A stretch of DNA of 64,000 bases from Rivibacter subsaxonicus (GTDB lineage Bacteria > Pseudomonadota > Gammaproteobacteria > Burkholderiales > Burkholderiaceae_C), in NCBI RefSeq assembly GCF_004217215.1, contig NZ_SHKP01000004.1:590829-654828 (forward strand). The letters are read 5' to 3'. The position numbers and the translations under genes are program-made. Shown here one piece after another: positions 25,152 to 30,015 of this stretch. Numbering within the stretch: position 1 is the first letter of the stretch; every line of letters begins with the position of its first letter. Below the pieces are notes generated by a model. The model was not told the DNA's origin. It made no database searches and saw only the letters and a program-made list of their open reading frames with translations.

Positions 25152-26148
25152 TTATAGACCCGCGTTGCCGCGCGCGGTGCGGTCCGCCGCCCTCGCACTA
25201 GGGACTCGCAAGCGATGGCCGGGCAGCGGGCCGCGTGCCAGGGCACTGGCAGTCGCGCAGACGCACCAGCAGATCCACGCGCTGTACAGGCCATGGCTCG
25301 GATAGTGGGCACCGCGCAGCGTCTGCGCGGTGCTGAAGCTCGCGCCGAGCAGCAGGCTGCCGATCAGCCAGGCACGCGCACGCGTCGGTCGATGCTCGCG
25401 CAGCGCGAACCAGCCGCCGACGAAGGCGAAGGCGCCCGATGCATGGCCGCCCGGGAAGCAGCGGCCCGGGCCACCATCGGCGATGCCCCAGGCCCAGTGC
25501 GAGAGCTAGGGCCTGTTCACACTGCGGAGACCCGATGCGTTGTCACCAGAAAGGTCGCGAGTTAGGCGCACACCGCAGCCGGGGTCGGCCCCCGGCGAGG
25601 ATGGGCAACGACGCGCGCGGCCTTTCTGGTGGCAACCCGGACGGGAACGGGCCTGCCAGGGCGCAGCTCGGCGTTGCACTCCTAGCCCAGGCGTCCAGCC
25701 TGGGCGTTGTCGTGCGCCTTGCTCTGCGCCCTGGCAGACCCGTTCGCACGGGTCTGCGCAGTGTGAACAGGCCCTAATGCGCGCTGCCGCCGAACTCCGC
25801 CAGCGACCAGGGGCAACTGGTGGCGCTGGCCTGCTTGAGCGCCGGCACCAGCAGCAGGCTCAGCACCACGCCACCGAGCCACGCGATGCGCGTGGCGCGA
25901 TCGAGCGCGTGATCGCGCCAGGGGCCGAGACAGTTCTTCAGCACGCAGGCAAACAGCAGCACGCTGAGCCAGTAGCCGCCGCGGTGCAGCACCCCGCTGA
26001 CGAACCAGTGCTCGCGCAGCGCAAAGCCGGACTGGCTGCCGATCAGTCGCATCAGCGGCAGGTCGAGCCCGCCGACATCCCAGAGCAGCAGCCCCAACGC
26101 GCCGAACAGGGCGATGCGCAGGTCGGTGCGCCAGCGCGACTCAGCCAC
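25152..26148 (-). pseudogene. PAP2-family membrane phosphatase, split by a MITE
   Basis: Two parts of one PAP2 (lipid phosphate phosphatase) gene flank the element at 25509-25774. The 5' part (26148 or ATG 26175 down to 25777) has membrane helices and reads LLVPALKQASATSCPWSLAEFGGSAH, including the KQ-x6-RP-like first motif region. The 3' part (25506 down to a stop at 25152) reads SHWAWGIADGGPGRCFPGGHASGAFAF, the PSGH-like motif, and GASFSTAQTLRGAHYPSHGLYS, the SR-x5-H-x3-D region. The element brings an immediate TAG stop, so only an inactive half protein can be made. It is the last gene of the pmrAB-eptA-like group; such phosphatases remove lipid A or isoprenoid phosphates. Confidence 0.85.
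25509..25774. mobile_element. 266-bp MITE with 26-bp terminal inverted repeats and nested palindromes
   Basis: The ends GGGCCTGTTCACACTGCG... (25509-25534) and its reverse complement (25749-25774) match at 25 of 26 positions, and both ends are flanked by the dinucleotide TA (25507-25508 and 25775-25776), a likely target duplication. Inside lie two more inverted pairs: CCAGAAAGG (about 25547) with CCTTTCTGG (about 25623), and TGCCAGGGCGCAG (about 25654) with CTGCGCCCTGGCA (about 25724), the latter enclosing a GCCCAGGC/GCCTGGGC hairpin. There is no transposase. It would be moved by an IS with the same ends, probably of a TA-targeting family such as IS5/IS630; none is in the window. Confidence 0.85.
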
Positions 26149-27877
26149 CGCTGCCGCGGCAGGCTGCCAGCGCATCGAGTTCGCGCCGGTACTCGGTCGC
26201 GCGCACCCGCGCCAGGCCAAGCACGGTGTGGAACAGGTGGTCGTGCGAGAGCGCGGCGTCACGGCCATGCTCGACGCAGGCGCCGTCGAGCGCCAGGCTC
26301 GCGCGCGCGGCCGGCGAGGTCCACAGGATCATCGGCACCTGCTTCTGCGCCTGCGGCGCGATCGCGTAGGGCATGCCGTGCAGGTACAGGCCGTTCTCGC
26401 CGAGCGACTCGCCATGGTCCGAGACATAGAGCAGCGCGGCGTCGAAGCTCTGGGCATGGCCCTGCAGCCAGGCGATGGCGCGGCCCAGCACCAGGTCGGT
26501 GTAGACGATCGAGTTGTCGAAGGCGTTGACCAGGTCGGCATTGCTGCAGTCCTGCAGCACGTTGCTGCGGCACTCGGGCTGGAACGGCTTGCTCGCGGCC
26601 GGCGAGCGCTCGCCGTAGGCCGGCCCGTGGCTGCCCATCTGGTGCAGCACCAGCACCGTGCCGCGTGCACGGCGCTGCGGGTCGAGCGCGGCCAGCCGCG
26701 CGTCGAGGTCGTAGAGCAGCGCCTCGTCAAGGCATTCGCCGGCGCGGCACAGCGCGGCCGGCGCGCTGGTGCGGCCGGGCGTCGGCTCGCTGGTCGAGGC
26801 ATGCGGCACGCGATCGCACAGTCCCTTGCAACCGGACTGGTTGTCGAGCCACAGCACTGCCAGGCCGGCGCGCTGCAGCAGGTCGAGCAGGTTCTCGCTG
26901 TCCTGCGCGCGGTCGAGGAAGGCGCTGCGGTCCAGCGACGAGAACATGCACGGCAGCGAGGCGGCGGTGCTGGTGCCGCAGGATTGCACCCGCCCGAAGC
27001 TGACCAGGTCGGTGAAGCGTGCGAGTTCGGGGTTGGTCGGCCGCGGGTAGCCGTTGAGCGAGAAGTGATCGGCGCGCGCCGTCTCGCCGACCACCAGCAG
27101 CACCAGCGGCGGCCTGGCGCCGGTCGGCATGGCGAGCGCGCGCGCATCGAGGCCGATCGGCGTCGGCGGCCCGGCCGGCCTGGCTTGCGCCTCGCGCGCC
27201 AGCAGCCCGAGCGCGTAGACACTGTTGAGCGGGTTGACCAGGTAGCGCAGCGACTTGTGGTTGCGCATCGTGCCCGACAGGCTCTGGAACGCCAACAGCG
27301 TGAGCGCCAGTGCCAGGCCCAGCGCGGCGGCGCCGGCCGCGAGGTTGCTCAGCGCCAGGCGCCGGCCCGCCACCGCGCGCAGCGGCTGGCGCCACAGCCA
27401 GACAATCGGCAGGCCGGCGACCAGCAGCAGGTTGAGCAGCAGCGGCAGGCTCAGCAGCGCGCCGGCTTCGCGCACGTCGGTCTGCATCACGTTGCGCAGC
27501 ATGCTGCTGTCGACGAGCACGCCATAGCTGCCCATGAAGTGGGCCGCCACCGCGGCGACGAGCAGGAAGATCGCGACGACCGGCTTGAGCAGCGGCCGCC
27601 AGGCGAACAGCAGCAGCGGCAGCGCGGTCAGCGCGGCGACGATCAGGCACATTGCTAGACCGAACAGCAGCCCGCGCGCGCCGCCCATCTCGGGCAGCGC
27701 GGCGATCGCGCGCCACAGGGGCCAGTTGGCGACGGCGGCGAGCCAGGCCGCGGCCAGCAGTGCGAGCGTGGTTGGGGACCAGGCCCGCGGCGGATGAAGC
27801 GAGGCGGTGCGGCGCGTGACCGGGCCGAGGGGGCGCGCGGCGGCCGGGGCGCGCAGCGCGGTGGAATCGGACAGCAT
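26141..27877 (-). CDS. eptA: Lipid A phosphoethanolamine transferase (EptA/MCR family)
   Basis: Adds phosphoethanolamine to lipid A phosphates on the periplasmic side of the inner membrane, lowering the negative charge and giving resistance to polymyxin-type peptides. The 578-residue protein has an N-terminal membrane domain of about five helices and a C-terminal sulfatase-fold domain. The zinc ligand Glu265 is in VVGETARADHFSLNGYPRPTNP, the nucleophile is Thr304 in CGTSTAASLPCMFSS, and the metal-binding YVSDHGESLGENGLYLHG follows. Several Cys (SGCKGLCDRV, LCRAGECLDE, QPECRSNVLQDCS) match the disulfides of the family. Downstream of a PmrAB-like pair and upstream of the broken PAP2 gene. Confidence 0.93.
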   Translation of the reverse strand: MLSDSTALRAPAAARPLGPVTRRTASLHPPRAWSPTTLALLAAAWLAAVANWPLWRAIAALPEMGGARGLLFGLAMCLIVAALTALPLLLFAWRPLLKPVVAIFLLVAAVAAHFMGSYGVLVDSSMLRNVMQTDVREAGALLSLPLLLNLLLVAGLPIVWLWRQPLRAVAGRRLALSNLAAGAAALGLALALTLLAFQSLSGTMRNHKSLRYLVNPLNSVYALGLLAREAQARPAGPPTPIGLDARALAMPTGARPPLVLLVVGETARADHFSLNGYPRPTNPELARFTDLVSFGRVQSCGTSTAASLPCMFSSLDRSAFLDRAQDSENLLDLLQRAGLAVLWLDNQSGCKGLCDRVPHASTSEPTPGRTSAPAALCRAGECLDEALLYDLDARLAALDPQRRARGTVLVLHQMGSHGPAYGERSPAASKPFQPECRSNVLQDCSNADLVNAFDNSIVYTDLVLGRAIAWLQGHAQSFDAALLYVSDHGESLGENGLYLHGMPYAIAPQAQKQVPMILWTSPAARASLALDGACVEHGRDAALSHDHLFHTVLGLARVRATEYRRELDALAACRGSGG

Positions 27878-27916
27878 TCCGCCACTCTGGCGGGCGGGCC
27901 TTAGCGCAGCATTAAG

Positions 27917-29347
27917 TCAGGCGGCGCGGCGCAACCGTGCGCGCAGGCCGGGGCCGGGCGTGCGGAGCTCGAAGTCGAGCACCAGGCCGTGCAGCGCAGC
28001 GATGCGCGTGGCGATCGACAGCCCGAGCCCGCTGCCGCCGGGGGCACTGCCCGGCGCGCGGAAGAAGCGCTCGCCCAGGTGCGGCAGCGCCGCCGCGTCG
28101 ATGCCGGGGCCGGCGTCGAGCACCTCGACCGCATCGGCCGCAAAAAGCAGCGTCACGGTCGCGCCGGGCGGGCTCGCGTTCAGGGCGTTGTCGAGCAGGT
28201 TGCGCAGCAGCACGCTCATCAGCCCGCCGTCGCCGGCCAGCGGCAGCGCGGCCGATGGCGCATCGGCCGGCCATTCGACCGCCAGCTCGACCTGCCGGCG
28301 CGTGGCCAGCGGCAGCAGTTCGTCGAGCACCGACGGCACCAGCGCCGACCAGTCGAGCGGCCGCGGATCGACGAGCGTGCTGCGGTGATCGATCCGGGCC
28401 AGTTCGAGCAACTGGCCGAGCAGGCGCTGCAGGCGCTCGAAGCCGGCGTCCATCTTCGCGTTGGCGGCCCTGTCGTCGGAACCACTCGCCGCATGCTGCA
28501 GCCGCAGCGCATCCCACTGAGCGCGCAGCGCCGCCAGCGGCGTGCGCAACTCGTGCGCGGCGTCGCCCGTGAAGCGGCGCTCGCGCTCGATCGCCGCGTC
28601 AACGCGCAGGAACAGCGCGTTCATCGAGATCGCCAGCGGCTGCAGGTCGCGCGGCAGTTGCTCGACCGGCAGCGGCTCGAGGTCGTCGACCCGGCGCCGC
28701 GCCACCTCGACCCCAAGCTCGCCCAGAGGCCGCAGCGCCTGGCGCACCGCCCAGGCCATCGCCACCAGCAGCAGCGGCAGCATCAGCAGCCACGGCACGA
28801 GCTGGCTCAGCACGAGGCCTTCGACGATCTCGTCGCGCTCGTTGTGGGTCTGACCGACGGCGATCAGCCAGCGACCATCGAGCGCCGGCAGGTAGTAGGC
28901 GCGCCAGCCAGCGTCGCCCAGTCGCAGGTCGACGAAGCCGCTGGCGTCGCCGCGGTTCGGCAGCTGGGCGCCCTCGCGGTCGACCAGCAGCAGCCGGCCC
29001 TCGCGGTCCCAGACCGCGATCGCCATGTCCTCGAGGTCGGCCTCGCCCATGTCGCCCGGCGGGCGCGCATCCGGCGCCGCGCGGTCCTCGAGCGCCGCGC
29101 TCGGCAGCGTCGCCTGGATCTGGCGCGCGAGCCGGATCATCTGGGTATCGAAGAGCTCGTGCACCTCGTGACGGGCATGGCGATAGCTCAGCGACGCGGC
29201 CAGCAGCCACACCAGCGGCGCCGCCAGCGCGATGCTGAACAGCACGCGCTGCAGCAGGCTGCAGCGGCGCCACCAACGCAGCGCACCCGCCGCCATGCCG
29301 CCGGCAGACGGCGCGGCGCCCGCGGTGGAGCCCGGAACCAGGCTCAT
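27917..29347 (-). CDS. Sensor histidine kinase, PmrB/QseC-like
   Basis: A 476-residue inner-membrane kinase. Two membrane helices (about 36-54 and 184-203) bracket a periplasmic sensor domain of about 130 residues with an acidic stretch (MGEADLEDM), a HAMP-like linker follows, then the HisKA domain with His265 in FTGDAAHELRTPLAALRAQW, the N box LLRNLLDNALNAS and the ATP-lid glycines VEVLDAGPGID and GSGLGLSIATRI. It overlaps the response-regulator stop by 4 bases (ATGA), so they are co-translated, and leads into eptA 39 bases later. A PmrB role, sensing cationic peptide or metal, follows from this context only. Confidence 0.9.
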   Translation of the reverse strand: MSLVPGSTAGAAPSAGGMAAGALRWWRRCSLLQRVLFSIALAAPLVWLLAASLSYRHARHEVHELFDTQMIRLARQIQATLPSAALEDRAAPDARPPGDMGEADLEDMAIAVWDREGRLLLVDREGAQLPNRGDASGFVDLRLGDAGWRAYYLPALDGRWLIAVGQTHNERDEIVEGLVLSQLVPWLLMLPLLLVAMAWAVRQALRPLGELGVEVARRRVDDLEPLPVEQLPRDLQPLAISMNALFLRVDAAIERERRFTGDAAHELRTPLAALRAQWDALRLQHAASGSDDRAANAKMDAGFERLQRLLGQLLELARIDHRSTLVDPRPLDWSALVPSVLDELLPLATRRQVELAVEWPADAPSAALPLAGDGGLMSVLLRNLLDNALNASPPGATVTLLFAADAVEVLDAGPGIDAAALPHLGERFFRAPGSAPGGSGLGLSIATRIAALHGLVLDFELRTPGPGLRARLRRAA

Positions 29348-30015
29348 CCCAGTTCCTCGACCGCGCCAAGCGCGTAGCCGACACCGCGCACCGTGCGCAC
29401 CAGCTTCGGGTGCAGCTTGCGACGCAGGTGGTGCACATGGACCTCGAGCGTGTTGCTCTCGGCCTCGCGGCCGAAGGCATGCAGCTTGTCCTCGATCAGC
29501 GCGCGCGGCAGCACCCGCTGAGGGTTGGCCAGTAGCAACTCGAGCAGGGTCGTTTCACGGGTCGTCAGTTCGACCGGGCGATCCAGCCACTGCACGCTGC
29601 GGGCATCGGGCCGGTAGCTCAGCGGTCCGTGCGTCCAGAGGCTGTCGGCACGGCCAGCCACGCGGCGGCGCACCGCGCGCAGCCGCGCCGCGAGCTCGGC
29701 AATGTCGAGCGGCTTGACCAGGTAGTCGTCGGCGCCGCCGTCGAGTCCGGCCACGCGCTGCTCGAGGGCGTCGCGCGCGGTCAGGATCAGCACCGGCATC
29801 GCCAGCCCGCGTGCGCGCCAGCGGCGCAACCAGCCGAGGCCGTCGCCGCCGGGCAGGCCGAGGTCGAGCAGCACCGCGTCGTAGTCGACCACCGCCAGCG
29901 CGGCATCGGCCTCGCGGCCGTCGACGAACCAGTCGACCGCCAGGCCCAGCGCGCGCAGGCCGGTCGCCAGGCCGTCGCCGAGCAGGATGTCGTCTTCGAC
30001 GATCAGCAGTCGCAT
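29344..30015 (-). CDS. OmpR/PhoB-family response regulator, PmrA/QseB-like
   Basis: A 223-residue DNA-binding response regulator. The receiver has the acidic pocket EDD (7-9), the phosphorylated Asp51 in [12 protein letters not shown] and the switch Lys in DYLVKPLD. The winged-helix effector domain ends in [30 protein letters not shown]. It is the first gene of the group with the sensor kinase, eptA and the PAP2 remnant and probably controls them. The dnaJ stop lies 31 bases upstream on the same strand, so its promoter would lie within or near dnaJ unless it is read from the chaperone operon. Confidence 0.92.

Follow-up and report, generated by a model that had tools for sequence, protein, structure and literature searches.

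A 266-bp MITE of Rivibacter subsaxonicus and its two inverted hairpin modules

The Locus and the Architecture of the Element

The analyzed stretch of Rivibacter subsaxonicus DNA (64,000 nucleotides, hereinafter the window) carries on its minus strand a PAP2-like gene that is split by an inserted element into two pieces sharing one reading frame: the upstream, N-terminal part (25777..26268), which has no Pfam match and whose frame is closed by TAG at the element junction, and the downstream, C-terminal part (25152..25505), which belongs to the PAP2 superfamily (PF01569, E 1.3e-7). The broken gene adjoins a gene for an EptA/EptB-type phosphoethanolamine transferase (26141-27877), and genes for a sensor kinase (27917-29347) and a response regulator (29344-30015) lie nearby, all three on the minus strand; the whole group (25152-30015) resembles what we take to be a lipid-A modification cluster. 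A homologue of the upstream piece is present in 13 of 39 other genomes, and the site is readable across without interruption in 5 of the 11 loci examined. When the flanks of the element are joined, the PAP2-like frame still runs into a stop where they meet (25506-25508 / 25775-25777, minus strand); therefore the gene was possibly dead before the insertion, and the element, which may have gone into an already premature stop codon, need not be its breaker.

The element occupies 266 bp (25509-25774), exactly the interval delimited by the original prediction. A duplicated target TA, read from the sequence, stands on the left (25507..25508) and on the right (25775..25776), and the terminal inverted repeats assigned by repeat search and end comparison (25509..25534 on the plus strand and 25749..25774 on the minus strand) are identical at 25 of 26 positions. 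Within the element, the repeat search returned three inverted pairs, namely the outermost one of 28 nt (96%), one of 21 nt (90%, 25539-25559 with 25616-25636), and one of 22 nt (95%, 25645-25666 with 25724-25745). Altogether 16 inverted 11-mer pairs were counted in the interval 25300-26000 of the window, whereas 1000 dinucleotide shuffles averaged 0.28 such pairs and never exceeded 5. Thus the predicted terminal repeats, the TA at both ends, and the two additional inverted pairs inside are confirmed far beyond chance, while the description of all three repeats as nested is correct for the enclosing outer pair and incorrect for the inner two, which are not nested in each other. Since these two stand side by side within the outer pair, the fold is a three-way junction. 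For 25507-25776 its energy amounts to -115.9 kcal/mol as single-stranded DNA and to -201.6 kcal/mol as RNA, with z of -13.7 and no equal among 200 shuffles in either case.

No Pfam family was detected at E 0.1 in the three ORFs overlapping the element, implying that neither a transposase nor any other protein of these families is encoded there. Rfam covariance models gave no match at gathering score in the window and one far sub-threshold match, to a microRNA family, in nine loci, on which grounds a known Rfam RNA was rejected. The search for promoter and terminator patterns over 25300-26000 of the window was negative, and an intrinsic terminator was accordingly rejected as well.

The two inner hairpins turned out to be homologous modules of about 100 nt in inverted orientation, which align over their full length once one of them is reversed. 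Module A (98 nt, 25539..25636, plus strand) contains two conserved boxes, AGGCGC (25564..25569) and GCAACG (25605..25610), the AA of the latter being unpaired; module B (101 nt, 25645..25745, minus strand) carries the counterparts GCAACG at 25672..25677 and AGGCGC at 25714..25719. A covariance model built from the module (R1) scores them at 88.4 bits (E 2.6e-18) and 95.7 bits (E 5.2e-20), respectively, both copies being within the training set of the model. They are separated by a linker of 8 nt (25637..25644) which, by eye, forms with its neighboring bases a small CCC..GGG hairpin in many subfamilies.

Copies and Relatives

The genome of origin (G000, 3.94 Mb in 12 contigs) holds a second copy of the window element with 96% identity and, in addition, a second subfamily with ends GGGCCTGTTAACGCTACCGG, in which six full-length copies (267-268 bp) are accompanied by two longer ones of 348 and 425 bp and by no fewer than three that are partial or lie at contig ends. 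Matches to the window element were obtained in 13 of 60 genomes including its own, i.e., in 12 of the 59 others, and full-length matches with 68-82% identity occur in G001, G005, G007, G017, G030, and G035. Scanning for the end TAGGGCCTGTTCACACTRCG extended the range, among the matches listed, to Burkholderiales (Roseateles, Pelomonas, Piscinibacter, Methylibium, Inhella, Ideonella, Rhizobacter, Paucibacter, and Variovorax) and to bins from other phyla, the taxon labels often being those of metagenome bins. The search through the genome and its relatives thus found a second copy as well as insertion sequences (ISs) with similar ends, described below, which refutes the one-off event named by the original prediction as its alternative.

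Pairing of ends in the collected loci by means of the pattern TAGGGCCTGTTNRCRCTR with at most two mismatches gave 93 distinct pairs. Of these, 57 span 267-274 bp, and the remaining 36 fall into 43-57 bp (7 pairs), 154-193 bp (10), 819-828 bp (6), and other lengths (13). The 57 elements form 28 clusters below 85% identity, the representatives of which are all 267-271 bp long and, the window’s own apart, 58-82% identical to the window element; as these elements were gathered by likeness to the window element or to its end pattern, both the lengths and the TA counts given further on are biased towards that form. One-module, two-module, and minimal ends-only forms occur side by side. The minimal ones consist of little but ends in 43-57 bp (L121:776-832, L176:4483-4533, and L196:3024-3066), and an ends-only element starting at position 895 of L134 is shorter still. 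Spread on plasmids was rejected because the window element has no match there; with a 272-base stretch around a relative element from G250, two of 72,556 records match, covering 19% of the stretch.

Partner Insertion Sequences

The outer 15 nt of the left terminal repeat, GGGCCTGTTCACACT, share 14 positions with the ends of an IS5_3-type IS of G030, an 827-bp unit bearing TA and GGGCCTGTTAACACTA at both ends. Its products are encoded in two frames that meet at an A run and correspond to PF13340 and PF01609; against NF033580, the second frame passes with 135 bits (cut-off 110), and the first remains just short with 101. The G030 assembly repeats the left part of this IS and then stops. Cleaner copies of 828 bp, with one end off by one base, are found in G004, while a Nitrospira MAG contains an 819-bp IS in which one end fits the same 20-base pattern as that of the window element and the first ORF is alike by eye. 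Except for one base at one G004 end, GGGCCTGTTMACRCT is the terminal sequence common to the MITE and the IS5_3 elements. The partner ISs presumably belong to the IS427-like group.

Part of the G030 transposase used as query matched 4 of 60 genomes at 1e-20. In the genome of origin, the same query gave no match at 1e-20, the NF033580 profile search returned nothing at 1e-3, and reading by eye of C3:277500-284500, where two ends of the same orientation are located, revealed no recognizable transposase gene. As no partner transposase was found there, the copies in this genome have probably been left stranded, or else the transposase that moved them has since been lost. No module was detected at E 0.1 in nine loci, seven of them with an IS or transposase of the IS5_3 kind. 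Derivation from an internally deleted IS was rejected, as nothing in common is seen beyond the ends and the IS loci tested lack the module. The assignment to MITEs made in the original prediction is backed by the ends, the TA duplication, the copies, and the partner ISs in other genomes, and the element is best understood as a non-autonomous IS5-type transposon which would be moved in trans.

Target Sites and Stop Codons

Duplication of TA within a YTAR target is the rule for the IS5 family. Junctions were compiled from distinct end pairs that measured either up to 430 bp or 800-840 bp and whose flanks ran to some 60 bases or more, giving 88 cases, nearly all of them MITEs and a few ISs. YTAR is present at 80 of the 88, distributed as CTAG (47), CTAA (18), TTAG (11), and TTAA (4), and TA is intact on both sides at 67 of the 88, although the pattern used for the search itself contained TA. 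Among 178 element ends, 88 were set aside (54 as weak and 34 for having no open gene-like frame); at 69 of the remaining 90, the TAG formed by the junction shares the phase of the gene-like frame. The background in the same loci, element junctions included, is lower, with 182 of 453 YTAR and 103 of 188 CTAG in frame, so that insertions are enriched where a frame ends, with the stop kept. It should be taken into account that an in-frame TAG at the junction fits a natural stop and an earlier break alike. TAG is rebuilt at a stop codon because the target overlaps TAA or TAG and the element begins with G. The excess of stop-codon insertions together with the restoration of the stop by the first base of the element offers a simple reason for the tolerance of such insertions.

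Conservation of the Fold

The RNAalifold structure of the 28 representatives comprises 91 pairs, 72 of which have two-sided changes. Cells are paired in 92.6% versus 35.5-40.1% with the partners slid by 1-3 columns, and covariation is 0.572 versus 0.063-0.108 in the slid controls, none of 500 shuffles reaching the observed values; the structure scored was derived from the same alignment, which favors the fold, and the gap is nevertheless very large. In the internal loop, 51 of the 56 modules have GC facing AA, and for the two column pairs tested, pairing is found in 0 of 56. Consequently, two opposite regimes are seen within one module: the letters of the arms vary while their pairing is retained, whereas the loop keeps its letters and stays open. 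Most of the conserved columns surround the internal loop and do not form an end tag, and over the representatives, the two modules keep to 98-100 nt and 100-101 nt.

Modules of the same type resemble each other more (A-A 0.62, B-B 0.52) than A resembles B, and A-B likeness is practically the same within one element (0.439) and between elements (0.427), which implies that the two-module plan is probably old.

The pairs found on both strands gave 72 G-U versus 57 A-C for the element and 37 versus 31 for the module, the plus-strand fold alone giving 82 versus 58. With no clear bias for G-U over A-C, the counts give no firm indication that the folded molecule is RNA and not DNA, and selection on the RNA of one strand only was rejected on the same ground. 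Within seven clusters of close subfamilies, the paired changes number 3, 3, 2, 11, 1, 10, and 11, and in six of the seven, single changes are commoner than compensated ones. Selection for the fold is likely, and palindrome correction may serve as a helper in keeping the arms paired.

The Module Outside the Element

At E 0.01, R1 detects the module in all nine genomes chosen from the family. In a sample of 200 genomes of the phylum, 38 have it at 1e-6, the own one included, i.e., 37 of 199 others, spread over many families of Pseudomonadota. Twelve genomes reached through end-pattern matches were also searched, three of which were known beforehand to hold the module, and the loci of the other nine were already known to be matchless. 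A Chromatiales bin gave 109 matches, a Longimicrobiales bin 7, and an Acidobacteriaceae bin 5; none was obtained in nine bins (three of Treponema and one each of Caldilineaceae, Bacteroidetes, Gemmatimonadetes, Acidobacteria, Nitrospira, and Terriglobia), which serve as a control on false R1 matches. A model of the letters without the pairs finds 48 of 49 tested loci at E 0.1 or better and 43 at 0.001 or better; hence the modules have letters in common and not merely the hairpin shape.

The module occurs within elements bearing six other types of ends, four of them in the own genome (L304; L305; L306-L307; L308-L310) and two further ones in G004 and G035. Over their first 20 bases, compared in register with the end of the window element, 4, 5, 5, 8, 9, and 10 positions agree, against about 5 for random 20-mers (95th percentile 8), so that four of the six types are at random level, and those of L306 and L323 are slightly above it. 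Since the L304, L305, and L323 types are alike (8-11 of 20), the independent end types are maybe fewer than six.

A different context is represented by G018, where 95 module matches were obtained at E 0.01; the 16 listed are all single modules, 12 of them 91-95 nt long. The seven copies that were read (L311-L317) display no clear terminal repeats, their alignment scores being 6-10.5 versus 13-27.5 in ended elements, and therefore the module is not tied to transposon ends. Several of these copies share a second small hairpin upstream, and the G018 set may be a distinct family of repeats with the module as its basis. In L097 of G005 (1420-1790), a two-module element has apparently been inserted, as judged by eye, into the TA of a lone module hairpin.

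Discussion

MITEs are usually regarded as degraded ISs with unimportant interiors. In the present case, the interior is the conserved part, as its arms co-vary, its loop is fixed, its length is constant across genera, and its module recurs with different ends. The homology of the modules, their occurrence with other ends, the stop-codon insertions, and the broken PAP2-like gene all go beyond the original prediction. The explanation that we prefer, giving it as a whole a probability of about 0.6, combines an IS5_3 MITE moved in trans with gene-end hairpin modules kept by selection. An IS5-family transposase (transpos_IS5_3) would recognize the outer ~15-17 bp of the ends and insert the element at the TA of YTAR with duplication of this TA. 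What lies between the ends is no shrunken IS; it consists of two copies, inverted to each other, of a ~100-nt module of wide occurrence that has presumably been combined with several different transposon ends. The common plan of the modules comprises an outer stem that varies freely and is complementary for the most part, the fixed internal loop AGGCGC/GCAACG, and another stem. An insertion into a stop codon leaves TAG, and the element would then become the 3′ tail of the flanking gene or genes; the fold would be much the same in either orientation, and a hairpin placed at gene ends could protect the end of mRNA or separate transcripts. Such insertions would cost the host little, and the module may be retained by selection.

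The original prediction proposed that the fold could have a role beyond hitch-hiking. Its structural side stood, in the sense that the fold is kept by paired changes over 28 subfamilies with the inner loop conserved; the role itself may consist in an action at gene ends or in protein binding, and this we hold less firmly than mobilization in trans. The location of the window copy within a gene, and not at a natural gene end, counts against the gene-end variant. More tentatively, with the odds somewhat against it, the module could be an undescribed RNA or folded-DNA structure under selection, whose GC/AA loop is read by a conserved host factor and which travels as a common passenger of several small transposons. 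It thereby becomes testable whether some MITEs are retained because of the structure that they place at the ends of genes.

Several features of the same data can be read without any selection, if the element is a passive MITE in which replication slips between the arms copy one arm onto the other, the fold and the length being by-products. Double changes already present among copies 93-97% alike, the lack of a clear RNA-strand bias, and the stranded appearance of copies in a genome where no partner transposase was found are all in accord with it. We nevertheless consider it unlikely, as correction of this kind should yield a perfect central palindrome, whereas not one of the 56 modules has a paired loop and 51 of them carry GC/AA there; moreover, the length is fixed at 267-271 bp in the 28 representatives, A-B likeness within an element is hardly above that between elements (0.439 and 0.427), and the module survives with different ends.

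Somewhat less likely still is the use of the fold as a DNA device of transposition, in which a single strand would pair its own ends and expose the loops to transposase or to a DNA-bending protein of the host. About equal quality of the fold on both strands, the inverted modules presenting one module in each sense on each strand, the conserved inner loops, and the sharing of the module by several end types would suit such a device. However, the partner IS loci tested are devoid of the module, the G018 modules lack terminal repeats, and the existence of minimal elements of 43-57 bp implies that modules are not strictly needed for movement.

The single G018 matches (16 listed of 95, seven of them read and free of terminal repeats) and the lone module hairpin seen by eye around the L097 element could also mean that the module is a REP-like mobile hairpin repeat of its own, invading MITEs and genomes; this is improbable given the constant two-module architecture with separate grouping of A and B, which speaks for old co-inheritance, and given a form other than that of REP (20-40 bp with a GTAG/CGTC tag). 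A one-off rearrangement or an assembly artefact, suggested by contigs of several assemblies breaking at these elements, has practically no chance in view of copies and relatives in many genomes and was rejected.

Comparison With Known Systems

ISs of the IS5 family (NF033580, transpos_IS5_3) are like the MITE in the outer ~15-17 bp, nearly letter for letter, and in TA at both ends; translation of their transposase appears to involve two frames that join at an A run. They are unlike it in that the MITE has no transposase and no likeness to them is seen past the ends, and in that the IS loci tested are without the module. Integron attC sites, folded strands bound by recombinase through R and L boxes, presumably differ from the module in the order of boxes.

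Correia elements of Neisseria have ends of ~26 bp and duplicate TA, as does the window element. According to passages of PMC10969869, the Correia (NEMIS) element is described from Neisseria as 204 bp long, and the two are similar in being small MITEs with strong RNA fold and frequent location beside genes; the present element departs from Correia as described in those passages by its pair of homologous hairpin modules, by the several types of ends, and by the wide host range found here. Among the MITE-like repeats R0, R2, R178, and R200 of Pseudomonas fluorescens, R0 and R2 share ends with ISs, and R178 is 101 bp long (PMC2718517, in part), which is about the length of one module; R178 and R200, as far as the description in that part goes, may be akin to it. 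REPs are given in passages of PMC3733652 as 20-40 bp sequences with an unpaired GTAG/CGTC tag at one end, and REP/REPIN palindromes associated with RAYT as often close to each other in opposite orientation, mostly downstream of genes, and possibly RNA elements; the modules are unlike REP in having 98-101 nt with an internal loop and in lying inside TA-flanked terminal repeats. QMITE1/2 of Coxiella resemble the element as MITEs with a very long palindromic fold, some of them being transcribed as small RNAs, and in the same passages, QMITE1 is said to have no orthologues in other genomes (PMC5896051), unlike the present module with its occurrence across many families of Pseudomonadota. The passages concerned of PMC10969869, PMC2718517, PMC5896051, and PMC3733652 contain no description of this module, and a literature search by text and by sequence strings of the module and ends, with subscription papers and supplements outside its range, returned no paper on it.

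Additional Observations

In the copy at L008:1445-1869 (contig C1 of G000), the second half contains a long tract of G and C only and a run of N, probably reflecting failure of sequencing or assembly at the hairpin. The starts of contigs C3 and C9 of G000 and of many G268 contigs fall inside these elements; with contigs repeatedly beginning there, counts of copies in draft genomes are probably too low. On C3 of G000, two ends of the same orientation (L106:2917-2931 and L106:4055-4069) are located ~1.1 kb apart, each following a similar stretch of ~40 nt; they may be what is left of a duplication, or else two solo ends.
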